This document shows positions 715 to 21,272 of a DNA stretch of 48,085 nt, piece after piece. Position 1 is the first letter of the stretch. Each line of letters starts with the position of its first letter. This stretch comes from Sulfuricella sp. T08 (GTDB lineage Bacteria; Pseudomonadota; Gammaproteobacteria; Burkholderiales; Sulfuricellaceae), in the NCBI RefSeq assembly GCF_000971475.1, contig NZ_DF967538.1, positions 1 to 48,085 of the forward strand, in the 5' to 3' direction. The notes below the pieces were generated by a model. That model saw only the letters and a program-made list of their open reading frames with translations. It had not been told where the DNA came from and made no database searches. Both the position numbers and the translations under genes were made by a program.

Positions 715-1365
715 CTACTGACCACATCCAGACACGCCGTGCCGCATGGCGATTAACGCAGCCTCGGTGCGTGAGCGCACATGCAGTTTTTGCAAGATAC
801 TCGTCATGTAATGCTTGACCGTCTTTTCCGCAAGGCACATGGCCTCACCGATTTCCCTGTTGGTGAGTCCCTGGCTAAGGAGCTTGAGGATTTTGGTCTC
901 GCGCTCTGTCAGTTCGGAATGCGAAGCAAGGGGGAGCGGGCGTGAGAACTCGGTTAGCATATCTGCCGCCAGGGCGGGGGTGACGTAAGCCTCACCATTG
1001 GCCACGCGGCGCGTGATGGCGCGCAACTCGCTTGCGGACACACCTTTTAATACGTAGCCATGCGCCCCGGCTTTGAGTGCTGCCATTAGATTTTCCCGGT
1101 TTTCGGAGACGGTGAGCATCATGATGCGCACTCCCAGTAAACTGGTGGCGATCATTCCGGCAGCCGCGATACCCCCCATTCCGGTCATCGTGACATCCAG
1201 CAGCACCATGTCGGGATGCAAGCGATTCGCCAGTTCCACCGCCTCCTCACCGCTGCCTGCCTGGGCGATCACCTCGAAATCCGGTTCTGTGCCAAGCGAG
1301 TGGGCGACTCCCTCGCGAAACAGGGGATGGTCGTCGGCGAGCAGAATACGGATCGGGCTAGGCAT
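715..1365 (-). CDS. NarL/FixJ-family response regulator
   Basis: A 216-residue two-component regulator. The receiver domain (about 5-120) has the acidic pair D11-D12, the phospho-acceptor D57 in VLLDV, and K107 in YVLK. The C-terminal LuxR-type helix-turn-helix (about 150-205) reads LTERETKILKLLSQGLTNREI, with the typical turn and a recognition helix around EKTVKHYM. The start ATG overlaps the end of the upstream histidine kinase gene by 8 bases, so the two are translationally coupled and almost certainly partners. The nearest divergent target is the cytochrome cluster starting at 3079, and the shared intergenic region carries two short dyads. The signal is unknown; NarXL, DegSU or UhpAB-like roles are all possible. 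Confidence 0.93.
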   Translation of the reverse strand: MPSPIRILLADDHPLFREGVAHSLGTEPDFEVIAQAGSGEEAVELANRLHPDMVLLDVTMTGMGGIAAAGMIATSLLGVRIMMLTVSENRENLMAALKAGAHGYVLKGVSASELRAITRRVANGEAYVTPALAADMLTEFSRPLPLASHSELTERETKILKLLSQGLTNREIGEAMCLAEKTVKHYMTSILQKLHVRSRTEAALIAMRHGVSGCGQ

Positions 1366-2773
1366 GGATCATTTCATCGGTTGATAGAGGGAGCCGGGCG
1401 CTGATACAGGTGCCGCGTCCGGGAGCGGAATCGATTTCAAAGATACCCCCGAGCAGCCGGACGCGCTCGCGCATGAATGTCAGTCCGAGCCGCCCCGCTG
1501 TGGCGGCCGCCTGAGGATCGAAACCGGCACCCTGGTCTGTGATCGTAACCAGTACCTGTCCCACAGCCTGTTGCACATGCACCTGAGGTGCGCCTCCGGG
1601 CGCGTGCCGCCAGCAGTTTGTAAGCGATTCCTGGAGTAGGCGGTATACCGTGATCTTGACTGCAAGTGGCGCCTTATCAAGGGCTTCATCGATCTCAGTC
1701 TTGACCGTTTGCCCGGACACGTGCTCGAAATTGCGCACAGCGTGTCGAGCGGTGTCGGCGAGCGAGAGATCGGCTATGCCAGGCATCGCCAGTCCGGAAG
1801 AAATTCTTCGCACATCCCGAAGCGAGGATTGCAGGGCACCGTGGATGCTGTGAAGGTCTTGCTTAACGCCACCCGGTGACAATCCACAGCTACGGCACGC
1901 GGCAGCAAATTCGTCGAAGCGCATCAGGGCGAAGGCAATAGCTTGCGCCGGTCCGTCGTGCAGGTCGGCGGCGATCCGGAAAAGAAACTCCTCGTTGAGC
2001 GTGGTCGTGCTAACGCCTGCCTCGCGCAACCGTTCGCGCATGTGATCGTTCTCGTCGAGAGAGGAGTGCAGTTGTTGTATCTGGTGGTGCAGGTCGCGCT
2101 GCTGGTCGCGGATGGTATCGTTGGCGCGACGCACCAGACCGAACAGCAACAGGTAGATCGCGAGAGTGATGACCGTGACAAGCAGCCAGCTGCGATGCTG
2201 GGCGGTGCGGATGTCGCGCCCCAGGCTCTCCATCGAGTGATAGAACTCGGCGACCGCAATAATCTCTCCCTGGGTGCCAGAACGGATCGGCACATAGACC
2301 TCGAGCAGTTGTGGCCAGCGCACATGCTCGGGCAGGTTGTCGGCTTCATCGAGATCGCTGATCCGGGCCTGCACTGTACCTGCGAAGGCTGTGGCAAGTT
2401 GCTTCCCGACCGGGAAGCGAAGTCCAATTTGTGCATCGTCGCTGCTGTAGACGATACGCCCGTCTGCGTCCCAGAGTTTGAAGCGAAGCACCTCGCGGTG
2501 TAACGGTCCTTTTACGAAAATCCGGTCGAGCACGGCATGCGTCTCGTTGTCCACTATTCCCCCGCCTGGCCAGTCATGCAGTTGCGCCGCGAAGATACTC
2601 TCCAGGTAAATCGCCGAGATTGCCGCAGCGCGGTCCACCTCGCTGTTTTCGATCTGTCGCCCCAGCCAGGTTCCGATGACTGCCATGCCGATCAAGAGGA
2701 CCGCGATGATCGCCAGCATGAACTGGCGCGAAAAACTCAGGCGGCTGAAGGGTTTCTTTGTGGCTAACGACAT
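1358..2773 (-). CDS. NarX/DegS-type sensor histidine kinase
   Basis: A 471-residue membrane sensor kinase. A membrane segment lies at about 18-38, followed by a periplasmic sensory region of roughly 155 residues. A second membrane segment lies at about 195-215, followed by a cytoplasmic coiled stretch. The HisKA_3 phospho-acceptor motif is at 270-274 (DLHDG, H272). A GHKL ATPase domain follows, with ITDQGAGF as the N-box/G1-like region and a GLTFMRERV segment. The periplasmic region has a PAS/double-Cache feel (WDADGRIVYSS) but no residue that identifies the ligand. It forms an operon with the regulator, which it overlaps by 8 bases. The HisKA_3 class and the LuxR-type partner match each other. 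Confidence 0.93.
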   Translation of the reverse strand: MSLATKKPFSRLSFSRQFMLAIIAVLLIGMAVIGTWLGRQIENSEVDRAAAISAIYLESIFAAQLHDWPGGGIVDNETHAVLDRIFVKGPLHREVLRFKLWDADGRIVYSSDDAQIGLRFPVGKQLATAFAGTVQARISDLDEADNLPEHVRWPQLLEVYVPIRSGTQGEIIAVAEFYHSMESLGRDIRTAQHRSWLLVTVITLAIYLLLFGLVRRANDTIRDQQRDLHHQIQQLHSSLDENDHMRERLREAGVSTTTLNEEFLFRIAADLHDGPAQAIAFALMRFDEFAAACRSCGLSPGGVKQDLHSIHGALQSSLRDVRRISSGLAMPGIADLSLADTARHAVRNFEHVSGQTVKTEIDEALDKAPLAVKITVYRLLQESLTNCWRHAPGGAPQVHVQQAVGQVLVTITDQGAGFDPQAAATAGRLGLTFMRERVRLLGGIFEIDSAPGRGTCISARLPLSTDEMIHA

Positions 2774-2868
2774 CGGAAACCCTCTGTATGTAATCGAGAA
2801 TGCTTGAATAAATCATTTTAACACGCGACGAACGTCATCGCGATTATCCCAATGGTCTGATAAAAATA

Positions 2869-2880
2869 AGACTTTAGTCT
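2869..2880. promoter_or_regulatory. Short dyad AGACT-TT-AGTCT, operator candidate
   Basis: A perfect 5-base inverted repeat separated by TT lies in the divergent intergenic region about 96 bases upstream of the kinase start. LuxR/NarL-type regulators usually bind short inverted repeats of about this size, and one is encoded next door. Function is inferred from position only. Confidence 0.3.
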
Positions 2881-2926
2881 GACTCAATCAAGGCTGATAG
2901 TCCGTTGCGGGGCTGTCTAGTATTTC

Positions 2927-2940
2927 GGATACTTGTATCC
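2927..2940. promoter_or_regulatory. Dyad GGATAC-TT-GTATCC, operator candidate
   Basis: A perfect 6-base inverted repeat around a TT centre lies about 20 bases upstream of a TATAAAAT block. That is a position where an activator of the Cyc2-like operon could sit. It has the same TT centre as the dyad at 2869-2880 but different arms. The link to the NarL-type regulator is an inference. Confidence 0.35.
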
Positions 2941-3078
2941 TAAGGAATTGGAGTGGTGACTATAAAATAGCAACACCCACAAAGTAATACCAAACTATTT
3001 GTAGTGGCCGTACATATTGATTCTAACGATGGTGAACCGGTCTGAGTTGGAAATGGTTGTTTTATGAAAGGGCGGATA

Positions 3079-4575
3079 ATGAATAAATTCACAAAGACGA
3101 TACAACGTAGCGTCTTGCGCAAGGCGGCTCTTGTCTTTGGCCTGCTGGGAATAACGGCGGCGCTATTCCCGGTGGATTCGCAGGCGCTCCCGCTTTTCGC
3201 GCGACAAACCGGGCAGAACTGCGTGGCTTGCCACGCCGGCGGACAATTTCCCGAACTGACGCCCTACGGTCGGTCGTTCAAGCTGACCGGCTACACCATC
3301 GGCGACCGCGTCTCAGTACCGTTGTCGGTAATGGGGCTCGCCACTTACACGAAGGTTCGTGACACTTCCAAAAGCGACAATCCGGCAGGGGATTTCTCTA
3401 AAAACGGGACTGCCCTTGCCTCGGGCGGGAGTCTCTTCCTCGGCGGCAAGATCACCGACAACATAGGCGCGTTCGTACAGTGGACCTACGACAACTTCGC
3501 CGTCCAGAATGCAGATGGCGGTTACTCAGGGCACTCCGGAACCGACAACGTTGACATCCGCTATGCCGATCGGTTCATCGATACGAACAGAGATCTGATC
3601 TTCGGCGTGAGTCTGAACAACAATCCGTCTATTTCCGATCCATGGAATACTGCCGCCGCCTGGATGCAATATGTTCCCGTGCCCAGCCCAACCAGCAGCC
3701 AGTTCATCGATGGGGCCGCCCCATACCCCGGCTTCGGTTCAGGCGGCAATCTCGCTGGCGTTAACCTGTATATGTATTTGAACAAGTTGGTCTATGCGGA
3801 ACTAGGCACTTACCAGACGGCAAATGGGATTTTCTCACCCATGAGTGCGGGCTTGACCGATGCGAGCAGGACAAAACTAAAGGGCGTCAACAATCCCTAT
3901 TGGCGACTGGCGCTAACACACGAATGGGGCCCACATAACATCATGGTCGGCACCTCCGGCATGATCGCACACCTCTACGACGACAACACAAATACATCGG
4001 ATCCAAACAGCGTTTACCGTGTATTGAATACCGGACTCGATGCTCAATACCAGTATATCCTCGATCCTCATACGATCACGGCGCAGGTTGCCTATATGAG
4101 GCAGAGAACAAACTATTCGGCAAATACTGTTGCTGCCAATGTCGGAGCTGGGTCACCTTCTGGCTTTTTTGCCGCCGACGGAAGTACGCTCTTGGCAGAT
4201 CCCAACGATTCCGACACGACCAACACGTTCCGGGGCAAATTAACTTATGTTTATCAGGCGAAATATGGCGGCAGTTTGGCCTACTTCAATCTAACCGGCA
4301 CGACTAACACCGCGCTCCAGACCTCGGGTTACGACGCCACGTCGACGATTGTTGTCGACCCCGCTGTCTCTCGCGTGAACGCCAACCTCTCAGGCAACCC
4401 CGCCACTCGCGGCTTGACCTATGAAGCGTTTTGGATGCCCGTGCAATATGCTCGCGTCGGCGTGCAATACACCGCCTATAGCAAATTCAACGGAGCCACC
4501 GACAATTACGATGGTTTGGGCAGAAACGCGAGTGACAACAATTCGCTCTTTTTCTATGTGTGGGGTGCGTATTGA
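3079..4575 (+). CDS. Cyc2-like outer-membrane cytochrome c-porin
   Basis: A 498-residue exported protein. A signal peptide (about 1-36) ends before LPLFARQTGQNCVACH, with a single c-haem site at 48-52. The next stretch, FPELTPYGRSFKLTGY, together with FARQTG, closely follows the signature of Cyc2-type fused cytochrome-porins. Those have one N-terminal haem followed by a beta-barrel. The remaining ~430 residues alternate polar and aromatic residues and end in aromatic YVWGAY, as outer-membrane barrels do. Characterised Cyc2 proteins take electrons from extracellular Fe(II). The haem motif here is followed by AGG rather than the FQ common in iron-oxidiser Cyc2, so the donor may differ. I chose the ATG at 3079 because GGGCGG lies just upstream; an in-frame ATG exists at 3064. 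It is first in an operon with a c4-type cytochrome and YceI. Confidence 0.75.
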   Translation: MNKFTKTIQRSVLRKAALVFGLLGITAALFPVDSQALPLFARQTGQNCVACHAGGQFPELTPYGRSFKLTGYTIGDRVSVPLSVMGLATYTKVRDTSKSDNPAGDFSKNGTALASGGSLFLGGKITDNIGAFVQWTYDNFAVQNADGGYSGHSGTDNVDIRYADRFIDTNRDLIFGVSLNNNPSISDPWNTAAAWMQYVPVPSPTSSQFIDGAAPYPGFGSGGNLAGVNLYMYLNKLVYAELGTYQTANGIFSPMSAGLTDASRTKLKGVNNPYWRLALTHEWGPHNIMVGTSGMIAHLYDDNTNTSDPNSVYRVLNTGLDAQYQYILDPHTITAQVAYMRQRTNYSANTVAANVGAGSPSGFFAADGSTLLADPNDSDTTNTFRGKLTYVYQAKYGGSLAYFNLTGTTNTALQTSGYDATSTIVVDPAVSRVNANLSGNPATRGLTYEAFWMPVQYARVGVQYTAYSKFNGATDNYDGLGRNASDNNSLFFYVWGAY

Positions 4576-4652
4576 AATCCCTGCTGAAGTTATTACCCGA
4601 AATCGTTATGCCGCATACCCGACATGAACGTCGGAATCTTCGGAGATTCGAG

Positions 4653-5294
4653 ATGAAAAAAATCATTTTAACATTGGCTGTCGGACTAGCCGCAGCCAGT
4701 TCTGGCTGCTCCAACCTCGAGCGCTCGCGTGATCTCGCCAACCCGAATGTTCCCCCGGCGGTGACCGCTGTCCAGGTTTGTTCGAACTGTCATGGTGTTG
4801 ACGGCAATTCCGTGTCGCCGAATTTCCCTCGACTCGCCGGGCAACAGCCAGCCTACATCATCGAACAGATGCAGAACTTCAGAAGCCAGCACCGCTCCGA
4901 CCCGGCCGGCTTTGAATATATGTGGGGCTTAAGCCACCATCTCACCGACGATCAAATCAAGGGACTCGCCGACTACTTCGCCAAGCAGGTTGCGCAGCCC
5001 AACGCTCCCGCCGACGTGCAGCAAATGGCTGCCGGCAAGGAGATATTCGAGAAAGGGTTGCCGGCCAAAGAGGCACCACCCTGCATGGCTTGCCATGGAC
5101 CTAAAGGGGAAGGACTCGCGAGTTTCCCCCGATTGGCGAATCAGCACCGGGACTACCTGGTGAAGCAGCTGCAAGTTTTTCAGAGAACGGATGAAAGGCC
5201 GAATACGCCGATGACACAAATCGCGCACCTGCTTTCCCACGAGGAAATGGAGTCCGTGGCCAGCTATTTGCAGGCGTTTCCCAACGACAAATAA
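4653..5294 (+). CDS. Di-haem cytochrome c4/c553-type protein
   Basis: A 213-residue exported cytochrome with two c-haem sites, CSNCH at 43-47 and CMACH at 144-148. Each sits in a class I cytochrome c fold typical of c4 proteins (FPRLAGQ...YIIEQMQNFR and FPRLANQ...YLVKQLQVFQ). Likely distal Met ligands are in YMWGLSHHLT and NTPMTQIAHLLS. The N-terminus (MKKIILTLAVGLAAASSGC) is a signal peptide. A Cys at 19 allows a lipoprotein reading, though the lipobox is not ideal. The start was set at 4653 by GGAG at 4642-4645. Located 77 bases after the Cyc2-like gene, it is the obvious periplasmic carrier to pass electrons on from the outer-membrane protein. That coupling is inferred. Confidence 0.9.
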   Translation: MKKIILTLAVGLAAASSGCSNLERSRDLANPNVPPAVTAVQVCSNCHGVDGNSVSPNFPRLAGQQPAYIIEQMQNFRSQHRSDPAGFEYMWGLSHHLTDDQIKGLADYFAKQVAQPNAPADVQQMAAGKEIFEKGLPAKEAPPCMACHGPKGEGLASFPRLANQHRDYLVKQLQVFQRTDERPNTPMTQIAHLLSHEEMESVASYLQAFPNDK

Positions 5295-5300
5295 CGGGAT

Positions 5301-5335
5301 TCTGTCTTTACCGGCGGCTCGCCGGTAAAGACAGA
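5301..5335 (+). terminator. Perfect 16-bp hairpin between cytochrome c4 and yceI genes
   Basis: Arms 5301-5316 and 5320-5335 are exact reverse complements around a 3-base loop (GCT). The hairpin starts 6 bases after the c4 stop codon and ends about 10 bases before the yceI ribosome binding site (GGAGG, 5346-5350). No T-run follows, so it is not a classic Rho-independent terminator. It may stabilise the upstream mRNA or act as an attenuator that lowers yceI expression. Confidence 0.55.
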
Positions 5336-5355
5336 TGTCCTCAACGGAGGTTTTC

Positions 5356-5922
5356 ATGAAAAGATATTTAACCGCTTTCGCAGTAATGACCGCTCTGGTC
5401 GCGCCAGCTCACGCTGCCGATAGCTACACCACCGACTCAGAGTTTACCGCCCCGGTTTTCGAAATCACTCATCTGGGTTTCACGACGCAACACGGCCGTT
5501 TTAACAAGACGAGCGGCAAAGTCATGATCGACTTCACGGCCAAGACGGGTAGCGTCGACTTTACGGTCTACACCGAGTCACTCGATATGGGCTGGGGGGC
5601 TTGGGCGAAACATTTAACCAGCGAGGGTTTGTTCAATGTGAAGAAATTTCCGACCATGACTTTCAAATCAGACAAACTGATTTTTGATGGCAACAAAGTT
5701 GTCGCGGCGGAAGGACAATTCACCATGATCGGCGTGACCAAACCCCTCAGGGTTACGGTGAACGGTTTCCAGTGTGGCAGCAACCCGGTGAGCAAGAAAC
5801 CGATGTGTGCCGGAGATGTCACGGCGACCCTCAGGCGCTCTGATTTCGGGTTGACCAAATACATACCGGCGGTTAGCGACGAAGTAAAAATCAACGTCCC
5901 GGTCGAAGCCTACAAGAACTGA
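5356..5922 (+). CDS. YceI-family periplasmic protein
   Basis: A 188-residue protein with a signal peptide (MKRYLTAFAVMTALVAPAHA) and a full YceI lipocalin-like domain. The domain shows FEITHLGFTTQHGRF near the start, VDFTVYTESLDMG, a K-F-P-TMTFKS strand and a C-terminal LRRSDFGLTKYIPAVSDEV. Family members bind isoprenoid/quinone-like lipids in the periplasm, and many sit beside cytochrome genes, often cytochrome b561. The start at 5356 is fixed by GGAGG five bases upstream; the in-frame ATG at 5335 lies inside the hairpin and has no such site. It is the third gene of the Cyc2-like cluster and may supply or sequester a hydrophobic redox cofactor. The ligand is unknown. Confidence 0.92.
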   Translation: MKRYLTAFAVMTALVAPAHAADSYTTDSEFTAPVFEITHLGFTTQHGRFNKTSGKVMIDFTAKTGSVDFTVYTESLDMGWGAWAKHLTSEGLFNVKKFPTMTFKSDKLIFDGNKVVAAEGQFTMIGVTKPLRVTVNGFQCGSNPVSKKPMCAGDVTATLRRSDFGLTKYIPAVSDEVKINVPVEAYKN

Positions 5923-12143: not shown

Positions 12144-12508
12144 GATTCTGAATCGGTGAACTTTTCGATGAGTTCGGCCGGGATGTGGGTGGCCATTTTT
12201 TCCAGCGGCGTAATGTAGGCCATCCCCATGCCGGGGGTGTCGAGCTTGGCAGTGGTGAAGATTCGCTCGAAGATGTGGTCGGCCTGGTCGGTGGAGGCAA
12301 CGATGTAGATGACCTCCTTTTCCGCATTGACCGTCACGCCGAGAACGCCCATGTGGCGCTGGCGCACACCCATGCCGCGGGCATAAAACACCGTCGCGCC
12401 CTGCGCACCGGCTCTGCGGGCGGCACGCACCACTTCATCGGCCACGCCGCGCTGAACAATCGCCGTAATCAGCACGGCATCCGTCAATACTATAATTTCG
12501 TCGCTCAT
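12140..12508 (-). CDS. PII-like signalling protein (first copy)
   Basis: A 122-residue protein of the P-II superfamily. Strand VLITAIVQRGVADEVVRAAR leads to GATVFYARGMGVRQ and a T-loop-like stretch, then EVIYIVASTDQADHIFERIF and a C-terminal segment with GMGMAYITPLEKM. PII trimers bind ATP/ADP and 2-oxoglutarate or, in PII-like members, other nucleotides, and gate membrane transporters. It overlaps the DUF1538 gene end by 4 bases (12505-12508) and the second PII-like gene by 4 bases. I chose the ATG at 12508 for this coupling rather than the longer frame from 12559. Co-translation with the transporter is the strongest hint to its target. Confidence 0.85.
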   Translation of the reverse strand: MSDEIIVLTDAVLITAIVQRGVADEVVRAARRAGAQGATVFYARGMGVRQRHMGVLGVTVNAEKEVIYIVASTDQADHIFERIFTTAKLDTPGMGMAYITPLEKMATHIPAELIEKFTDSES

Positions 12509-14214
12509 TCGATCACCACCCTGGCCCGCCGGTTCAGGGCGGTTCTCATGCGTATCCACAATCCTACCGCCAGCACGCTGACGATCGGGCCTATCGACGC
12601 CATCGCTAGGACACCAAATCCATCCTGCACTCCGACAGCTTTGCCCAGCCCCACACCCAGCGCGAGCACCAGGGGCACTGTCACTGGCCCGGTAGTGACA
12701 CCCGCGCTATCCCAGGCAAGGTTGACGTGCTCCTCGCCGGAAAGAAGAGTCATAAACAGCGCGAGCACATAGCCGGGCAACAATAGCCAGGCAATCGGCA
12801 AATCGAAAATGATCTTGGCAACGCCGATCGCGGTACCGACACCTACCCCGAAGGCGACTGCCCTGATCAGGGTATTTTTGGTGAAAGCGCCATCGGTCAA
12901 TTCCTGTACCTTCATGCCCATGGCGTTCAGGGCAGGCTCGGCCAGCGTTGCGCCAAAACCCATCAACAGGGCGAACAGCAAGGTCAGGGCTATGCCGACA
13001 CCATGAGAATACAAAGGCGAACCCGGTACGGATTCAAAACGGGCGAATGAAGCCGGAAAGAGTTCACCGGCCTGTGCGCCGAGCGCGGTCAGGCCGTAAT
13101 CCTGGCCGATGGAGAACAGGGCCATGCCGAGAATGGCCAGCGAAACGCCATACACGATAATGTTGAGGTTCTGCTGCTTTTCCTTCAGCAGGAAACGCTG
13201 CACCACCCACAGGAACAGTACCAGCGGCAGGATCGCGCGCAACGCCATGGAAATATGGGCAAACGGCGTCATGTGCTGTCCATGCTCGCTGGGTGCGTTT
13301 GTCATCAGGCCTTCGAGTGGGATGTTTGCCATCCACCCCCATTCCACAAACAGACCCAGCAGCATCACCGCCATCACCGGGAACAAGGAGGCCAATGTAA
13401 CGATGCCAAAGCCCGAAAGCGGGTTGTCCTCCTGGCCGGTTGCCGCGGAAACACCGATACCGACTGCCAGAACCAGCGGAACCGTTACCGGCCCGGCGGT
13501 GATCGCACCGCAATCCCAAGCCAATCCGAGTATCGGGGCAAGCCTGGGATCGGATGCCAGGTATGCCGTCAGCATCAGGCACGGAGGCACTGTGATAAGC
13601 AGAATAGTTTTCAGGCGCCAGTTGAAATAGAAGCGCAGAATGCCGACCAGCACGGCGAGTCCGACCCCGACAGCTACGGCGAATACCAGCCAATGCACCC
13701 GGTCATGCAGAAGGCTATAAAGATGAGGTGCGGTTTCCGCGCTGGTCAGGCTGCCGGCCGCCTTGAGCGCCCCGATAGCCGGCTCGGCCAGCGTTACCGC
13801 GGCACCCAGCACAAAAGCCACCAGCATCACTGTCAGAAGGGAAGAGCGGCCCGGCATGGTATAGCCGATGTTCTCGCTGAACGGCATCAGGCCATGCTTC
13901 ACCCCTTCCATAAACAGCATCAAACCAGTCATGATGGACAACAGGCCCATGGCCACTATCGCAGGCTGCTGAACCTGAACGTTCAGCACCGCCAGCAGGA
14001 ACAGCACCATGAACACGGCCAGTGGCACTACCGCTTGAATCTGATCCAGAAAACGCAAACCGATATAAGGTGCGATCAGGCGATACATATCCACTGCACG
14101 CAGACGCAGGCGACGCCGCAACGGCGCATGTGCCGTCACCACATTGTAGCTGATGGCATGCTGCCGGTGCCGGACGGCGCCGAGATAGTCTCCGTAACGG
14201 ATGCGGGTATTCAT
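12505..14214 (-). CDS. DUF1538-family polytopic membrane transporter
   Basis: A 569-residue integral membrane protein with about 12-14 hydrophobic segments arranged as two related halves. Each half repeats glycine-rich signatures: LGAAVTLAEPAIGAL in the first and MGFGATLAEPALNAM in the second, each followed by a DCGAITAGPVTVPLVLA or DSAGVTTGPVTVPLVLA element. DUF1538 proteins (UmpA/UmpB) from a halophile have been reported to act as a two-component cation/proton antiporter. In that system the two halves are separate genes, so here they look fused. The start at 14212-14214 (MNTRIRYGDYL) was chosen over a long 5' extension that overlaps the divergent DUF294 gene. It is first of an operon with two PII-like genes. 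The cation is not deducible. Confidence 0.82.
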   Translation of the reverse strand: MNTRIRYGDYLGAVRHRQHAISYNVVTAHAPLRRRLRLRAVDMYRLIAPYIGLRFLDQIQAVVPLAVFMVLFLLAVLNVQVQQPAIVAMGLLSIMTGLMLFMEGVKHGLMPFSENIGYTMPGRSSLLTVMLVAFVLGAAVTLAEPAIGALKAAGSLTSAETAPHLYSLLHDRVHWLVFAVAVGVGLAVLVGILRFYFNWRLKTILLITVPPCLMLTAYLASDPRLAPILGLAWDCGAITAGPVTVPLVLAVGIGVSAATGQEDNPLSGFGIVTLASLFPVMAVMLLGLFVEWGWMANIPLEGLMTNAPSEHGQHMTPFAHISMALRAILPLVLFLWVVQRFLLKEKQQNLNIIVYGVSLAILGMALFSIGQDYGLTALGAQAGELFPASFARFESVPGSPLYSHGVGIALTLLFALLMGFGATLAEPALNAMGMKVQELTDGAFTKNTLIRAVAFGVGVGTAIGVAKIIFDLPIAWLLLPGYVLALFMTLLSGEEHVNLAWDSAGVTTGPVTVPLVLALGVGLGKAVGVQDGFGVLAMASIGPIVSVLAVGLWIRMRTALNRRARVVIE

Positions 14215-14373
14215 CGCTGGTTCGGGATTGAGACAGATGGTGAAAGTATCGCACACTCCGGCATGGCAACAAAGAATGCCTTTTGACGAAATCCGCCTGC
14301 CGGGGCTATGATCATTCCAGCCGCGAACTCTATGGCTTGCATCTGCGGTTTTAAAGTTAATAAGGATTCCGAT

Positions 14374-16284
14374 ATGGCCAGCGCACCGTCCAACTCCCTG
14401 ATCCATGCGACCATGGACCACCTTCGCCGCTTCGCCCCATTCGACCGGATGGAGCACGATCATCTGGTGTGGCTGGCGCAGCGGCTTTCCCTGGGCTATT
14501 ACGCCAAGGGCGAGGTGATCGCCTCGCCCGAGCAGGGGGTGGCGTCCCGCTTCCTGGTGATCAAGCAGGGCGTGGTTCAGGGCGAGCAGGATGTGGTCCG
14601 GGCCCAGGAAGATGCCGCCTGGCTGGAGCTGCACGAGGGCGAGTGCTTCCCCTTGGGCGCACTGCTGTCCAAACGCGGTGTCACCAGCACCTATCGCGCT
14701 AAGCAGGATGTGTTCTGCTACGAGCTCGCTGCGGCGGATTTCCATGAGCTGATCCATTTGTCGCCGCCCTTTCAGGATTTTTGTACACGTCGCATCGCTT
14801 CCCTGCTCGAGCAGTCGAAGCAGATCATCCAGGCGCAGTATGCGCATTCGAGTTCGGAGCAGCAGTCGCTGTCCAGCCCCCTGTCGGCGATCATTCGCCG
14901 GGATCCGGTGACGTGCGCACCTGAAACGCCGGTGAGGTTGGTGCTGGAAACGATGCATGCCCTGGGAATCGGTTCAATGGTCGCAGTCGATAACACGCAG
15001 AAACCGATCGGCATCTTCACCCTGCACGACGTACTCAACCGGGTCGCCCTGGCGCAACTCGACCTGGACCAGCCGATCTCTTCCGTGATGAGTAGCAGCC
15101 TCACCGCCCTGCCACCCCAGGCATTCGCCTACGAGGCGGCGCTGGAAATGGCTAAGCATGGTTTCCGCCATGTGCTGGTGACGCAGAATGGAAAGCTGGT
15201 CGGGGTGATTTCGGAGAAGGATTTGTTTACGCTGCAGCGGGTGGGCCTGCGCCAGATCAGCGCGGCCATCCGCGGGGCAAACGATATCACCGCATTGCAG
15301 CATGCCGCCGGCGACATCCGCCAGCTCGCCCACAACATGATGGCGCAAGGGGTGGCGGCGGAGCAACTGACCCAGTTCATCTCTACCTTGAACGATTTGT
15401 TGACAGTGCGAATTATCGAGATGGAGTGCTTGGCAGCGGGACTGTTAGACAGTGCGCTGTGCCATACGGGATTCTGCTGGATCGCGCTCGGTTCGGAGGG
15501 GCGATACGAGCAGACACTGAATACCGATCAGGATAACGGGATTATTTTCCAGGAGCCGGAAGGGACGACCGCCGAGCAGGTCCGCATTCAACTCCTGCCG
15601 ATCGCCAGACGCATCAACGAGGCGCTTGATGCCTGCGGTTTCCCGCTATGCAAGGGCAACATCATGGCGAGCAACCCGCAGTGGTGCCTTTCCCTGGGTG
15701 AATGGAAGGACAGATTCGCAGGCTGGATACAGCGTGGCGATGCGCCAGTCCTGCTCAACGCGACGATTTTCTTTGATTTCAGACCACTGTTCGGCAAGCA
15801 CGAACTGGCTGAGAAACTTCGTATCTGGCTGCATTCAACGATCAAGGAAAATCGGCTGTTTCTCAAGCACATGGCAGCCAACGCACTGGCCAATCAGCCC
15901 CCTCTCGGACTGGTGCGCGATTTTGTGGTGGGCGAGGAACATACCCTCGACCTCAAGCTCAAAGGCATCACCCCGTTCGTCGATGCGGCGCGGATATTCA
16001 GCCTGTATGCCGGAGCCGGAGAAACCAGCACTATTCGACGGCTACGCGCATCCGGCGCGCAATGGCATATCGACCCTGCCACGATGGAAGCCTGGATTGA
16101 CGCCTTCCTGTTTATCCAGTTGCTGCGCCTGCGGACACAGCACGATCAGGACGAAAGAAACGTGCCGCTATCCAACAAGATCGACCCTGACAGCCTCAAC
16201 GACCTCGACCGCCGCATCCTGAAAGAAGCTTTCCGCCAGGCACGCAAGCTGCAGGCAACACTTGAGAAATACTTCCAGTTTTAA
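14374..16284 (+). CDS. cNMP-binding/CBS/DUF294 nucleotidyltransferase-like regulator (copy 1)
   Basis: A 636-residue cytoplasmic protein. An N-terminal cyclic-nucleotide-binding domain (about 10-140, with EGECFPLGALLSKR) is followed by two CBS motifs (about 165-290, with IGIFTLHDVLNRV and LVGVISEKDLF). A DUF294 nucleotidyltransferase-like domain follows, with GSEGRYEQT at about 373 and TDQDNG, the GS...D-x-D pattern of GlnD/KNTase folds. A DUF294_C helical domain (DLKLKGITPFVDAARIFSL) ends it. Such proteins commonly sit beside SSS carboxylate symporters and are thought to sense and modify. The start at 14374 has AAGGA upstream. It is a close paralogue of the gene at 23308. Its stop is 6 bases from the converging kinase gene. 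Confidence 0.9.
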   Translation: MASAPSNSLIHATMDHLRRFAPFDRMEHDHLVWLAQRLSLGYYAKGEVIASPEQGVASRFLVIKQGVVQGEQDVVRAQEDAAWLELHEGECFPLGALLSKRGVTSTYRAKQDVFCYELAAADFHELIHLSPPFQDFCTRRIASLLEQSKQIIQAQYAHSSSEQQSLSSPLSAIIRRDPVTCAPETPVRLVLETMHALGIGSMVAVDNTQKPIGIFTLHDVLNRVALAQLDLDQPISSVMSSSLTALPPQAFAYEAALEMAKHGFRHVLVTQNGKLVGVISEKDLFTLQRVGLRQISAAIRGANDITALQHAAGDIRQLAHNMMAQGVAAEQLTQFISTLNDLLTVRIIEMECLAAGLLDSALCHTGFCWIALGSEGRYEQTLNTDQDNGIIFQEPEGTTAEQVRIQLLPIARRINEALDACGFPLCKGNIMASNPQWCLSLGEWKDRFAGWIQRGDAPVLLNATIFFDFRPLFGKHELAEKLRIWLHSTIKENRLFLKHMAANALANQPPLGLVRDFVVGEEHTLDLKLKGITPFVDAARIFSLYAGAGETSTIRRLRASGAQWHIDPATMEAWIDAFLFIQLLRLRTQHDQDERNVPLSNKIDPDSLNDLDRRILKEAFRQARKLQATLEKYFQF

Positions 16285-16289
16285 GAGCT

Positions 16290-17660
16290 TTAAATCCCGC
16301 TGTGGTGCGGAAAATTCACCGTCACCAAGGTGCCCTTGCCATCCGTCCCCGCCCCGATGCTGATCCGCGCTTCGTGCAGATTGATCACTTCACGCACGAT
16401 CGCCAGCCCCAGGCCGCTGCCAACCTGGCCGCTACCGAGGATGCGGTAGAAGCGCTCGAATACCTGCCCGCGATGTTCCTCGGAAATACCTGGTCCGTTG
16501 TCTTCGATCCGCAGCACAGCCCCGCCCTCTTCATAGCCGGCACGTAGCGTCACCGTGCCGCCGGGCGGGGTATAGCGGATGGCGTTGTCGAGCAGATTGC
16601 CGATCATTTCCTGCAAGCCGATGGCGTCCCCACGCACCGGTAACACCTGCCTTGAACCTTCGAAGCCCAGATCGATATTTTTCTTGAGCGCCTCCGGTAC
16701 CCACAACATGGTGGTTTCCTTCGCCACCCGGTTCAGGTTCAACATCGCGAAAGAGCTGTAAGTATGACCACCCGGCTCGTTGCGCGCCAGTGACAGCAAC
16801 TGGTTCACAAGGTGACTGCAACGTTCGGCACTGGCGAGAATCTGATGCAGCGCATGGCGTAACAGCGCGGGATCGGCCTCGCGTAATGCAAGTTCCGCCT
16901 GCGTTTTCAGCCCGGCAAAAGGGGTACGCAGCTGGTGTGCGGCATCGGCGATGAAGCGCTTCTGCGACTCCATGACGTGCTTCAATCGCTGCAGCAGATC
17001 GTTGACCGCCTCGATCAGCGGCTGCACTTCCACCGGCGCCTTTTTTTCATCCAGCAGGCTCAGGTCGTCACGCGAGCGCCGCGCCACTTCCTGGCGCAAG
17101 TGTTCCAGTGGCATGAGTCCACGCTTCAAAGCATACCACACCGCGCCACCCGCCATGATGATAAGCAGCAATTGGGGAATCACGATGTTGCCCAGAATAC
17201 CCCGTGTCAATGCCTGACGCTTGCCGATGGTTTCAGCCATCTGCAACAGCGCATAACTGTTTGAATCCGCCGGATTGGTCTGGTAGCGCAAACTGACCAT
17301 GCGAATTTTCTGCCCTTTGAATTCACCATCGCTGAACACTGGCTCATTCCTGTTGGCCTGGAACACGGGGCGATGAGGTAGCGCTGCATTGCCGGCGATA
17401 ACGCGCCCCTCCCCCGTGGTGATGGCGTAAAACGTGCGGTCGCCGGATGCGGATGCTTGGTCAGGATACGTCTGCCCGCCCAGATTCATCTGCCCGGCCA
17501 AGGATAGTGCCCGCTCTTTCAAAGCAAGATCGTAAGGCTGATTGGCGTAATTCAGGGTCGCCATGTAACCCGCTGCCGTACTGAAAATCCACAATACGAA
17601 CAGGGGGGTGAACAGCCAGTTCATCAGATGGTTGCGCAGCGAAAGGATGTCATTGTCCAT
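16290..17660 (-). CDS. TctE/QseC-type sensor histidine kinase
   Basis: A 456-residue inner-membrane kinase. Membrane segment 1 lies at about 13-35. The periplasmic 2CSK_N-like region (about 36-155) has YDLALKERALSLAGQM and RTFYAITTGEGRVIAG, typical of tricarboxylate-sensor TctE relatives. Membrane segment 2 lies at about 155-178, followed by HAMP-like linkage. HisKA H242 is in ADAAHQLRTP. The GHKL domain has NLLDNAIRYTPPGG, DNGPGI and GSGLGLAIV. The start at 17660 (MDNDIL) is preferred over a longer reading. It is downstream of its response regulator gene, separated by 80 bases that hold heptameric repeats. The ligand class and the neighbouring symporters suggest sensing of organic acids, by inference. 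Confidence 0.92.
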   Translation of the reverse strand: MDNDILSLRNHLMNWLFTPLFVLWIFSTAAGYMATLNYANQPYDLALKERALSLAGQMNLGGQTYPDQASASGDRTFYAITTGEGRVIAGNAALPHRPVFQANRNEPVFSDGEFKGQKIRMVSLRYQTNPADSNSYALLQMAETIGKRQALTRGILGNIVIPQLLLIIMAGGAVWYALKRGLMPLEHLRQEVARRSRDDLSLLDEKKAPVEVQPLIEAVNDLLQRLKHVMESQKRFIADAAHQLRTPFAGLKTQAELALREADPALLRHALHQILASAERCSHLVNQLLSLARNEPGGHTYSSFAMLNLNRVAKETTMLWVPEALKKNIDLGFEGSRQVLPVRGDAIGLQEMIGNLLDNAIRYTPPGGTVTLRAGYEEGGAVLRIEDNGPGISEEHRGQVFERFYRILGSGQVGSGLGLAIVREVINLHEARISIGAGTDGKGTLVTVNFPHHSGI

Positions 17661-17670
17661 AGGGCAGCTT

Positions 17671-17737
17671 TCAGTCATCAGTTGTCAGTTGTCAGTTTTA
17701 GATGCCAGCCGTTCACTGATAGCTGATAGCTGACAAA
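17671..17737. repeat. Two blocks of 7-base tandem repeats inside a two-component operon
   Basis: On the plus strand four units (TCAGTCA, TCAGTTG, TCAGTTG, TCAGTTT) fill 17671-17698. At 17717-17737 a second block reads TGATAGC, TGATAGC, TGACAAA. The second block is roughly the reverse complement of the first, so the transcript could fold into a long imperfect hairpin. It occupies the gap between regulator and kinase genes. Heptameric intergenic repeats of this kind occur in several bacterial groups. Confidence 0.65.
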
Positions 17738-18525: not shown

Positions 18526-18846
18526 ATGTCAAAACCTAGTATGAATTGGGCCGCGATCGATGCGGACCCTCGGTTCCAGGCCTTGCATCGCAAGAAGACC
18601 ACTTTTCTCTGGGGACTGATGTTTATCTCGACGGTGTATTACTTCCTGTTGCCGATCGGGGCAGCCTATTACCAGGATCTGTTCAAGATCAAGGTGTGGG
18701 GCGTAGTCAACGTCGGCATCCTGTTTGCGCTGTCGGAATTCATTGTAGCCTGGGCCATCGCCTTCATCTACTCGAAAAAGGCCAATGCCGAATTCGACGC
18801 CATGGCGCAGGAAATCATCAACGATGCGCACAAGATGGGAGCCTGA
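18526..18846 (+). CDS. DUF485 small membrane subunit of acetate-type symporter
   Basis: A 106-residue protein with two membrane segments (about 26-48 and 62-84), the DUF485/YjcH pattern. The N-terminal D-PRFQALHRKKTTF stretch is conserved just before the first segment. In E. coli yjcH lies next to actP, and the DUF485 protein is regarded as a companion of the symporter. AGGAGG precedes the ATG by a good distance. The symporter gene starts 2 bases after its stop, so the pair is co-translated. No enzymatic residue is expected. The function in transport is not well defined. Confidence 0.92.
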   Translation: MSKPSMNWAAIDADPRFQALHRKKTTFLWGLMFISTVYYFLLPIGAAYYQDLFKIKVWGVVNVGILFALSEFIVAWAIAFIYSKKANAEFDAMAQEIINDAHKMGA

Positions 18847-18848
18847 AC

Positions 18849-20885
18849 ATGACAAAAATATTTAACAAGCTCGCCTTATCCACCTCAGCGCTGCTCGCCA
18901 GCGGCTCCGCCCTGGCAGCTACCGGCGCAGTTGCCGACGAGTTCAAGTGGATGACCTTCGCGGTGTTCGGCGTCATCATCGCCATCACCATGGGCGTGAC
19001 TTACTGGGCGGCAAAGCACACCCACACCACCTCCGAGTTCTATGCCGCCGGACGTTCGGTGAGCGGAATCCAGAACGGCTGGGCGATTGCCGGCGACTAT
19101 CTGTCCGCCGCATCCTTCCTCGGTATCGCCGGCCTGATCTCACTCTATGGCTACGATGGCTTCATGTACTCGGTGGGCTGGCTGGTCGCTTACATCACCG
19201 TGCTGCTGGTGATCGCCGAACCCTGCCGCAACATCGGCAAGTACACTATGGGCGACATCCTGGCCTTCCGCAATGAGCCGAAGAAAGTCAAGACCGTGGC
19301 GGCGCTGTCCACCATCACCGTGTCCACCTTCTACCTGACCGCGCAAATGGTCGGTGGCGGCGTGCTGATCAAAACCCTGATCGGGATCGACTATGAAACC
19401 TCCATCGTCGGCGTTGGCATCCTGATGCTGGTCTATGTCGTGTTTGGCGGCATGAAAGCCACCACCTGGGTGCAAATCATCAAGGCCGGCCTGCTCGTGT
19501 GCGCCTCGCTTCTGCTGGTGTTCTTCGTGTGGATGCCCTACGGTTTCAGCCTGCCGGATTACCTGCAAGCGGTAGTCGGCGACACCAAGGTACAGGCGCA
19601 GGTCGCCAAGCTGCTGGGCGACAAGGCCACCACCATGACGGCGGCTGAACTCGGCCAGCGCTTCCTTGAACCCGGCCTGTTCCTGAAGAGCCCGATCGAC
19701 CAGATCTCCCTGGGCATGGCACTGGTGCTCGGCACCGCCGGAATGCCGCACATCCTGATGCGTTTCTTCACCGTGCCGACGGCCAAGGCAGCACGACTGT
19801 CCGTAATCTGGGCAATGGGCATCATCGGCGGCTTCTACGTGCTGACCCTGTTCCTCGGCACCGGTGCCGCGATGCTGGTCGGCCCGGCCAAGATCGCCTC
19901 GATCGACCCCGGCGGCAACATGGCCGGCCCGCTCCTGGCGCAATACCTGGGTGGCGGCGCAGACTCCCTGCTCGGCAACTTCTTCCTCGCCTTCGTCGCG
20001 GCCGTAGCCTTTGCCACCATCGTTGCAGTGGTGGCCGGCCTGGTACTGGCAGCGGCTTCCGCCATGGCGCATGACATCTACGTCGGTGTCATCCGCGGCG
20101 ACCATGCCACGCCACAGGAACAAGTGGTAGCGGCCCGCGTCGCCTCGGTGATCGTCGGCATCATGGCGATTACTGTCGGCATCATGGCCAAGGGTCAGAA
20201 CGTGGCTCACTTGGTAGCACTGGCTTTCGCCGTGGCTGCCTCGAGCAACTTGCCGGCTGTGATGCTCACGCTGTACTGGAAGAAGTGCAACACCGGCGGC
20301 ATCATCGCCGGTATGCTGATCGGTGCAATCACCGCCATCGCGCTGGTGATGATTTCCCCCAACATGACCTACCCGCAAGCCGTCATCAAGGCCGCGCACA
20401 AAGTCATTGATGGCGACCCTGCCTCTGAGGCCAAACCTGCGGTGGAAGCCAAGTCTGGCGAAGGCTTTAGCTGCGAGTTGTTCGCGACGTGCAAAAAGGC
20501 AGAACCTGCGAAAGCAGCCGAGGACGCCAAACCTGCCAAGCCCGGCACCAGGGAAAAACTGGTGACGCTCCAGGCCAAGCTGGATGCCGCGACGGACGAG
20601 GCCGACAAGAAGAAAGTCCAGGCCGACCTCGACAAGGTGAAGAAAGCCCACGACAAAGCCGAAGGCGACCTGAAGAAGTTCGATGGGCAGACCACCAGCA
20701 TGGTGGGCCTGGAGAAGCCTTTCTTCCTGCTCAAAAACCCCGGTCTGATCTCTATCCCGCTCGGCTTCCTGGCCGTAATCATCGGTTCGCTGCTGTACCG
20801 CGACCAACGCGCCGAAGACATGTGGGACGAGCTCTATGTGCGCCAGAACACCGGTATCAACGCAGAGGCCGCCAGCGCACACTAA
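18849..20885 (+). CDS. actP: ActP-like sodium:solute symporter with an extra C-terminal soluble insert
   Basis: A 678-residue SSS-family transporter. A cleavable or uncleaved signal-like N-terminus (about 1-24) leads into the ActP core: TSEFYAAGRSVSGIQNGWAIAGDYLSA, a Na+ site region with ASFLGIAG, and FGGMKATTWVQIIKA. Between membrane segments near the C-terminus, residues about 515-620 form a hydrophilic, Ala/Lys/Asp/Glu-rich insert (KPAKPGTREKLVTLQAK and onward) that looks like a coiled coil and holds two Cys (SCELFATC). Standard ActP lacks it. The predicted substrate is acetate or another short carboxylate. It pairs with DUF485 and is followed by a strong terminator. The symbol is given by similarity only; substrate identity is not proven. 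Confidence 0.85.
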   Translation: MTKIFNKLALSTSALLASGSALAATGAVADEFKWMTFAVFGVIIAITMGVTYWAAKHTHTTSEFYAAGRSVSGIQNGWAIAGDYLSAASFLGIAGLISLYGYDGFMYSVGWLVAYITVLLVIAEPCRNIGKYTMGDILAFRNEPKKVKTVAALSTITVSTFYLTAQMVGGGVLIKTLIGIDYETSIVGVGILMLVYVVFGGMKATTWVQIIKAGLLVCASLLLVFFVWMPYGFSLPDYLQAVVGDTKVQAQVAKLLGDKATTMTAAELGQRFLEPGLFLKSPIDQISLGMALVLGTAGMPHILMRFFTVPTAKAARLSVIWAMGIIGGFYVLTLFLGTGAAMLVGPAKIASIDPGGNMAGPLLAQYLGGGADSLLGNFFLAFVAAVAFATIVAVVAGLVLAAASAMAHDIYVGVIRGDHATPQEQVVAARVASVIVGIMAITVGIMAKGQNVAHLVALAFAVAASSNLPAVMLTLYWKKCNTGGIIAGMLIGAITAIALVMISPNMTYPQAVIKAAHKVIDGDPASEAKPAVEAKSGEGFSCELFATCKKAEPAKAAEDAKPAKPGTREKLVTLQAKLDAATDEADKKKVQADLDKVKKAHDKAEGDLKKFDGQTTSMVGLEKPFFLLKNPGLISIPLGFLAVIIGSLLYRDQRAEDMWDELYVRQNTGINAEAASAH

Positions 20886-21014: not shown

Positions 21015-21272
21015 ATGCCTCTATCCAAAACACACCAGGAATACTGGAACAAGAATCTGCGCATGACAGCGGCCTTGCTGCTGATCTGGTTTCTGGCCAC
21101 CTTCCCGGTCATCTGGTTTGTCCGCGACCTTAACACCCTTTCCTTCCTTGGCTTTCCGCTCGGCTTTTACATGGCGGCCCAGGGGTCGCTGATTATCTAC
21201 GTAGTGGTGGTATGGTTCTATGCCCGCTATATGCACAAACTCGATAAAAAATATGGCGTCGCAGAAGAATAA
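21015..21272 (+). CDS. DUF4212 small membrane subunit of second symporter
   Basis: 85 residues with two membrane segments (about 16-38 and 48-72). The conserved N-terminal K-x-H-QEYWNKNLRM motif and the ending W-x-Y-ARYMHKLDKKYG define DUF4212. These small proteins occur almost only next to SSS symporters of the VC_2705 type and are treated as their second subunit. Its 3' end overlaps the symporter start by 20 bases (21253-21272), which implies translational coupling. It plays the same role that DUF485 plays in the preceding unit, but the two are different families. Confidence 0.93.
   Translation: MPLSKTHQEYWNKNLRMTAALLLIWFLATFPVIWFVRDLNTLSFLGFPLGFYMAAQGSLIIYVVVVWFYARYMHKLDKKYGVAEE

Follow-up and report, generated by a model that had tools for sequence, protein, structure and literature searches.

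The window analysed here, the whole 48,085-nucleotide contig NZ_DF967538.1 of Sulfuricella sp. T08, contains an operon in which a gene for a Cyc2-type fused cytochrome-porin is followed by genes for a dihaem cytochrome c4 and a YceI family protein. With a probability of about 0.6, this operon specifies a conduit of the Cyc2/Cyc1 kind for taking up electrons from outside the cell, with a lipid-anchored c4 and with Fe(II) as the likeliest donor. Computation establishes the features on which this reading is built: the gene content and order, the prediction of a barrel, the Cyc2 motif, the relatedness of the porin to rusticyanin-operon Cyc2 and of the c4 to Cyc1-type proteins, and a conserved cysteine in the c4. 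In kind the operon is ordinary, as both the cyc2-cyc1 order and the presence of Cyc1 and Cyc2 in Sulfuricellaceae growing on Fe(II) are already known (PMC12285272). What is apparently new is a clade-wide feature, the coupling of a c4 with a lipobox-like cysteine to a haem loop that is longer by two residues. In the literature searched, outside which most subscription papers lie, no report was found that places a lipoprotein c4 or YceI next to Cyc2. The elements of the conduit proper are the following.

3079..4575, forward strand: Cyc2-type fused monohaem cytochrome-porin, 498 residues, as predicted from an intact open reading frame (ORF), the Cyc2 motif and an AlphaFold2 model
3220..3234, forward strand: haem motif CVACH of the Cyc2-like protein, followed by AGGQF-PEL
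3322..4569, forward strand: predicted 16-strand beta-barrel region, residues 87-502 as numbered from 3064 (DSSP on the model, Foldseek)
4653..5294, forward strand: dihaem cytochrome c4 (Cyc1-like), predicted lipoprotein (Pfam Cytochrom_C, E 2.8e-17)
4707..4709, forward strand: codon of the lipobox-like cysteine of the c4 (residue 19; next residue Ser), from sequence comparison
4779-4793 and 5082-5096, forward strand: the CxxCH haem motifs of the c4, from the translated sequence

An in-frame ATG at 3064 also precedes the Cyc2-like gene, whose 498 residues are counted from 3079; for the c4, which the ORF list begins at a GTG (4560), the ATG at 4653 is the likelier start. The Cyc2-like gene occurs as a single copy in the host assembly (3.42 Mb). 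All of the genes described in an earlier note on this DNA are present as intact ORFs, and two features absent from that note can be added, namely the lipoprotein-like c4 and the correspondence of the operon start to the known cyc2-cyc1 order. The possibility that these are chance ORFs was rejected on the basis of relatives in many named genomes, the conserved c4 neighbour and the conserved upstream region.

The Cyc2-like protein

The mark of Cyc2 proteins is given as AXPXFAR[Q/K][T/Y], CXXCH and PXL (PMC8406198), and the window protein matches it as ALPLFARQT-GQN-CVACH-AGGQF-PEL, with a single CXXCH (CVACH) and PEL downstream. The proline of PXL, described as four residues downstream of CXXCH, is the sixth residue after the haem histidine in this protein, the fourth in rusticyanin-operon Cyc2 and the fifth in Cluster-1-like Cyc2, so the exact distance from CXXCH to PXL differs among accepted Cyc2 types. 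With 498 residues, the protein exceeds the FeGenie length rule for Cyc2 (365 residues). The remark in the earlier note that the haem motif departs from that of iron-oxidiser Cyc2 holds insofar as the loop differs from that of rusticyanin-operon and Cluster-1-like Cyc2, although a large clade shares this difference, which is not peculiar to this operon.

A Cyc2 layout with a beta-barrel had likewise been proposed, and the prediction agrees with it. AlphaFold2, run on 67 aligned rows picked by hand from the window protein and 80 relatives, returns a model (predicted local distance difference test, pLDDT, 86.3; predicted template modelling score, pTM, 0.83) in which DSSP recognises 16 long strands. 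Foldseek relates this model to 262 PDB chains at E <= 0.001, with a best value of 1.6e-9 to OmpF/OmpC-type porins. Among the 50 matches listed, 46 are named as porins or outer-membrane channels and four as artificial Zn metalloproteins, and the template modelling (TM) scores of the matches listed are moderate, at 0.36-0.45 by query and 0.50-0.62 by target. A periplasmic cytochrome without a barrel was rejected in view of the 16 strands, and neither of the two outcomes that the earlier note had named as contrary to its proposal, a structure without a barrel and placement among periplasmic cytochromes, occurred. On motif and model, the gene at 3079-4575 is thus a predicted Cyc2-type fused cytochrome-porin.

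The Cyc2-like protein has no Pfam or NCBIfam match at E <= 0.1, and a sequence search of the PDB yields only a chance-level match (E 0.39). One rusticyanin-operon Cyc2 and one Cluster-1-like Cyc2 are also without a Pfam match at E <= 0.001, so the missing assignment seems to reflect incomplete coverage by the library. As for the haem site, Met90 is invariant within the 67-row alignment of the window's relatives, but a universal methionine ligand was rejected, as Met90 is not kept in rusticyanin-operon or Cluster-1-like Cyc2. Among the Met, His, Lys and Tyr columns examined in 110 rows, only His57 (110/110) and Lys73 (108/110) exceed 105.

The dihaem c4 partner

The c4 has its best PDB match in 1h1o, named 'cytochrome C-552' (E 4.8e-32), which we take to be the Cyc1 of Acidithiobacillus ferrooxidans; together with the Pfam Cytochrom_C assignment, this bears out the dihaem carrier that had been suggested for the operon. 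Its pairing with the Cyc2-like gene is nearly constant. Among 84 loci examined, the window included and one genome counted twice (L063/L132), a c4 adjoins the Cyc2-like gene in 81 of the 83 that have at least 900 bases downstream.

The N terminus of the window c4 reads MKKIILTLAVGLAAASSGC-SNLERSRDLANP and has a cysteine 24 positions ahead of the first haem cysteine. Once 18 duplicate matches had been merged, 99 distinct Cyc2-like proteins carry the loop CH[AV]GG[QEMH][FY]P[EQ]LT, 96 of them with a haem-protein partner at most 1.5 kb downstream. Every one of these 96 partners has a lipobox-like cysteine, 95 by an [AGS]C pattern and that of L053 by eye in the correct frame; with duplicates kept, the pattern finds 95 of 97 and misses L137 and L053. 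The partner in L024 is split over two frames, and that in L022 ends at a contig end, its duplicate L080 being used instead. Two loci with a truncated Cyc2, L058 and L081, lie outside the 99; the c4 of L081 has the cysteine. The residue that follows the cysteine (+2) in the 95 scored partners is S in 38, A in 31, T in 13, H in 10, V in two and N in one, and never D, and an ERSRDLANP-like linker often comes after it. The cysteine is found in none of 28 partners of other Cyc2 types (0/21, 0/3, 0/4) and, by eye, in none of the seven further c4-like places that the host genome contains.

From this lipobox-like cysteine in the c4 proteins of the clade, tethering at the outer membrane is therefore predicted, and we infer both the lipidation and the sorting from sequence. 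Should the lipobox prove real and the standard +2 rule of lipoprotein sorting apply here, this system and that of A. ferrooxidans may fix like carriers to different membranes. The Cyc1 of A. ferrooxidans is predicted to be membrane-bound through a transmembrane helix (PMC4725956). The trees described below place two changes of the lipoprotein trait, and a single clade is not rejected by the approximately unbiased (AU) test (p 0.303). Because the rows are related, the 96 partners with the cysteine represent one or two evolutionary events, not 96.

Kinship and distribution

Reference Cyc2 proteins were assigned to types by gene context and motif, not by a published tree. The Cluster-1-like references, which have the loop xQHFPxLN, come mostly from two families of the host's order, presumably equivalent to Gallionellaceae. 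Profiles were built from 23 rows of the window family, eight of rusticyanin-operon Cyc2, 17 of Cluster-1-like Cyc2 and one MtrB-like control. When restricted to the barrel, the window family profile matches that of rusticyanin-operon Cyc2 with probability 99.8 (E 3.5e-29, 339 columns) and that of Cluster-1-like Cyc2 with probability 38.6 (E 3.2e-4, 195 columns); for the control, a single MtrB-like porin of the host, the probability is 0.2. The barrel of the window protein is thus far nearer to rusticyanin-operon Cyc2 (Cluster 2 type) than to Cluster-1-like Cyc2. In trees of 110 rows and of a hand-chosen subset of 53, a branch with 100/100 support sets the Cluster-1-like rows apart from the window and rusticyanin-operon rows, which occupy separate subclades on the opposite side. 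The trees are consistent with Cluster 2 kinship and do not settle the placement.

One of the genomes with rusticyanin-type Cyc2, G274, has two copies (L125, L126). In L126 the Cyc2 gene is succeeded by interrupted c4-like frames, an ORF without a Pfam match, COX2, COX1, a second ORF without a Pfam match, and genes for a UbiA protein, a rusticyanin-like protein and CtaG. This rusticyanin-like protein is 83.7% identical to one that scores above the TIGR03095 cut-off, and the order of genes agrees with that published for the rus operon of Acidiferrobacter (PMC10654088). The c4-like frames are interrupted beside both copies of G274, unlike those of G286 (L103, L111). A different situation is seen in G294, which belongs to the window's genus: it encodes a Cluster-1-like Cyc2 (L123/L128, CHFQHYPTLNEYGR), downstream of which lie two weak c4 matches, and a full-length match of the window's Cyc2 type was not found in this genome.

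Relatives of the window protein are encoded in 82 stretches of named genomes, of which 80 were kept. Their titles name Pseudomonadota, and carriers include Paraburkholderia, Caballeronia, Ramlibacter, Roseateles, Rudaea and Chromobacterium. This agrees with the known occurrence of homologues connected to AfCyc2 in Rhodanobacteraceae, Burkholderiales, Chromobacteriaceae and Nitrosomonadales (PMC10654088). A match at E <= 0.001 is present in 92 of 399 genomes of the host's order, Cluster-1-like ones included, and a match at E <= 0.01 in nine of the 22 genomes of its family, seven of these being full-length. Nine plasmid records also have a match. Two such loci, on plasmids of A. ferrooxidans YQ-N3 (L082) and Acidiphilium multivorum (L087), share a similar gene order and have transposase genes beside the Cyc2-like gene, which suggests mobility between acidophiles; the A. 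multivorum gene is annotated as two pieces.

Proposed function, genomic setting and known systems

In the proposed conduit, the 16-strand barrel would sit in the outer membrane and hold one c-type haem in a plug at its N terminus. The reductant, which would be soluble and most likely Fe(II), would enter the barrel and reduce the plug haem; the electron would then pass to a dihaem c4 that a lipid anchor and a linker of some 23 residues keep at the inner side of the outer membrane. Such a relay would neither diffuse nor be fixed in the inner membrane; placed beside the barrel, it would deliver electrons to periplasmic cytochromes and, through them, to terminal oxidases. YceI would be an optional periplasmic accessory, and the divergent kinase-regulator pair probably sets expression in the host lineage. 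The direction of flow toward the cell, the identity of the donor and the regulation are likewise inferred. Fe(II) appears likeliest because Sulfuriferula strains with Cyc1 and a Cluster-2-like Cyc2, which PMC12285272 places in Sulfuricellaceae, grow on Fe(II), and because PMC5566968 lists Cyc2-like genes for Sulfuricella denitrificans skB26. Related literature includes PMC7029218, PMC5371394, PMC5982212, PMC11475568, PMC12094003 and PMC2621215.

Several observations weigh against this reading. Model confidence is low at the haem plug (pLDDT about 55). A full-length profile that includes the haem domain also matches Cluster-1-like Cyc2 strongly (E 8.4e-19), and the AU test does not reject a tree in which the window clade (the rows with a lipoprotein partner) is joined to Cluster-1-like rows (p 0.236); because that grouping is allowed, placement of the protein rests chiefly on barrel similarity. 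The pairing with c4 has gaps, as no c4 was found beside the Cyc2-like gene in L038 and L055, and in L084 no partner lies downstream, a c-type cytochrome being located upstream instead. The lipobox is loose: a PROSITE-like pattern fits 92 of the 96 partners, including that of the window, and a strict [LVI][ASTVI][GAS]C box fits 27 of 97 (duplicates unmerged), that of the window not among them. In L058, a possible exception to the lipobox rule, the Cyc2 is truncated before the haem motif (73% identical over its part) and the c4 has no cysteine at that place. Many carriers, among them Paraburkholderia, Ramlibacter, Roseateles and Caballeronia, are not known as iron oxidisers. Published cautions bear on the donor as well: homologues distant from tested Cyc2 proteins are said to need verification still (PMC8406198), and the same is stated for a lone Cluster 2 homologue in Ca. 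Nitrotoga (PMC10734462).

It is conceivable, if somewhat unlikely, that the same conduit handles a donor other than Fe(II), such as Mn, humics or an electrode, or that it exports electrons to an outside acceptor at low oxygen. The spread of the clade through organisms not thought of as iron oxidisers would fit such a role, as would the haem loop, two residues longer than in rusticyanin-operon Cyc2; and since the host also carries an MtrA/MtrB-like cluster, its conduits may serve different substrates. Against this stand the barrel and the partner, both nearest to an Fe(II) system, and growth on Fe(II) by relatives at the family level. It is improbable that the conserved cysteine of the c4 escapes lipidation and that the protein is an ordinary soluble periplasmic carrier, as the poor fit to the strict box and the c4 of L058 might suggest: a cysteine ends the signal peptide in all 96 clade partners, with a residue other than Asp next to it in the 95 scored and often the ERSRDLANP-like linker beyond, and it is missing from the partners of other types and from the host paralogues. 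A solute-specific porin whose haem is structural or sensory, without electron transfer, would account for the likeness to OmpF/OmpC and is very improbable, given that a dihaem c4 almost always accompanies the gene and that the Cyc2 signature is conserved. Cutting across these options is a broader and quite tentative proposal, that the clade forms a separate, widespread class of Cyc2 in which a longer haem loop and a lipid-anchored dihaem relay combine into a stationary Cyc2-c4 unit that replaces the rusticyanin shuttle, and whose donor or direction may differ from Fe(II) oxidation. The conduit for uptake, most likely from Fe(II), remains the preferred interpretation. If true, a tethered c4, predicted in 96 distinct loci, would provide one large clade with a concrete answer to the question of how the electron of a single Cyc2 haem crosses the periplasm without rusticyanin, and the loop CHxGG[QEM][FY]P[EQ]LT combined with a lipobox c4 would be a sequence mark by which environmental surveys could distinguish the clade from proven iron oxidases.

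The remaining features of the locus are listed below.

715..1365, reverse strand: response regulator of the LuxR/NarL class, an intact ORF (Pfam Response_reg and GerE) outside the interval first described (1358-5922)
1358..2773, reverse strand: sensor histidine kinase, an intact ORF (Pfam HisKA_3 and HATPase_c)
2774..3078, no strand: divergent promoter region, 305 bases, partly conserved with G293 and L002
2869..2880, no strand: inverted repeat AGACTTTAGTCT, candidate operator, conserved in G293 and L002 apart from a single change in each (read by eye from the alignment; not among the results of the repeat search)
2927..2940, no strand: palindrome GGATACTTGTATCC, candidate operator, with outer half-sites kept in three genomes
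5356..5922, forward strand: YceI family periplasmic protein (Pfam PF04264, E 1.1e-32), begun at 5335 in the ORF list, the ATG at 5356 being likelier

YceI had been suggested as a member of the electron path, perhaps with a quinone or lipid cofactor; a role as carrier of such a cofactor is not supported. As a fixed part of the system it was rejected, since it occurs within 3 kb downstream in 24 of the 70 loci whose downstream sequence reaches 1800 bases or more (in more than one copy in five); L002, L033 and L035 also have YceI, with too little downstream sequence to enter the 70. The proposal of a NarXL-type pair stands with respect to a HisKA_3 kinase and a LuxR-type regulator transcribed divergently from the operon, and fails with respect to nitrate-type control. 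The regulator scores 172.6 bits against the NarL model (cut-off 250) and the kinase 44.2 bits against the NarX model (cut-off 578; kinase part only), and a NarX/NarL nitrate system was rejected on these curated NCBIfam cut-offs. Among the 84 loci, some with short upstream flanks, close copies of the pair occur only in two near kin of the host, G293 (97-98%) and L002 (74-81%). L009 has a weaker pair upstream (35-37%); in three Paraburkholderia/Burkholderia loci, a regulator match of 37-38% lies more than 5 kb away. The two inverted repeats of the divergent region are largely kept in the window, G293 and L002, and the pair may regulate the operon through this region. In a promoter scan, the three matches found did not stand out clearly from shuffled sequence (mean 2.2).

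Elsewhere in the host are three COX1-type oxidases over the cut-off and, apart from the operon c4, the seven c4-like places mentioned above. Three consecutive dihaem c4-like genes at G000:C76:141208-143485 (L206) encode proteins with ordinary-looking signal peptides, possible periplasmic acceptors. The MtrA/MtrB-like cluster, a second outer-membrane conduit at G000:C59:61482-67446 (L205:4483-10447), comprises an MtrB/PioB porin (TIGR03509, 399.2 bits, cut-off 240.05), a DmsE-type decahaem protein (265.6 bits, cut-off 192.2), a monohaem protein and a 694-residue protein with eight CxxCH. Further along the window are two DUF294/CBS/cNMP-binding nucleotidyltransferase-like proteins (14308-16284 and 23308-25212), between which lie a sensor kinase (16290-17678) and SSF symporters (18546-20885 and 21220-23304), as well as a large DUF1538 protein (12505-14958, E 3.4e-106).

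With regard to known systems, the two-component pair shares its HisKA_3 kinase and LuxR-type regulator with NarX/NarL and LuxR-type pairs, and differs from NarX/NarL in falling below the curated cut-offs. Cluster 1 Cyc2 of Gallionellaceae and Mariprofundus PV-1 has the N-terminal motif and haem domain in common with the window protein, whereas in the Cluster-1-like rows compared the loop is CH-xQHF-PxLN, barrel similarity is weak, and a haem protein is present within 1.5 kb downstream in three of 19 cases, a count that is partly limited by short flanks. Cyc1 (1h1o) is the closest solved relative of the window c4, and a c4 adjoins cyc2 in the rus operon too, but the window protein has in addition a lipobox-like cysteine and a linker of the ERSRDLANP type. 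The nearest system overall is the rusticyanin-operon Cyc2 of Cluster 2 (Acidithiobacillus and relatives), with which the window shares the N-terminal motif, a single CxxCH, barrel similarity over the full length and a downstream dihaem c4. It is distinguished from that system by two extra residues between CxxCH and PxL, where the rusticyanin-operon loop is CH-TSF-PQL; by the lack, within the window, of oxidase genes 3′ to the c4 and, in the host genome, of any match to the rusticyanin model TIGR03095, where the rus operon has both oxidase genes and rusticyanin; and by the lipobox-like cysteine borne by its c4.

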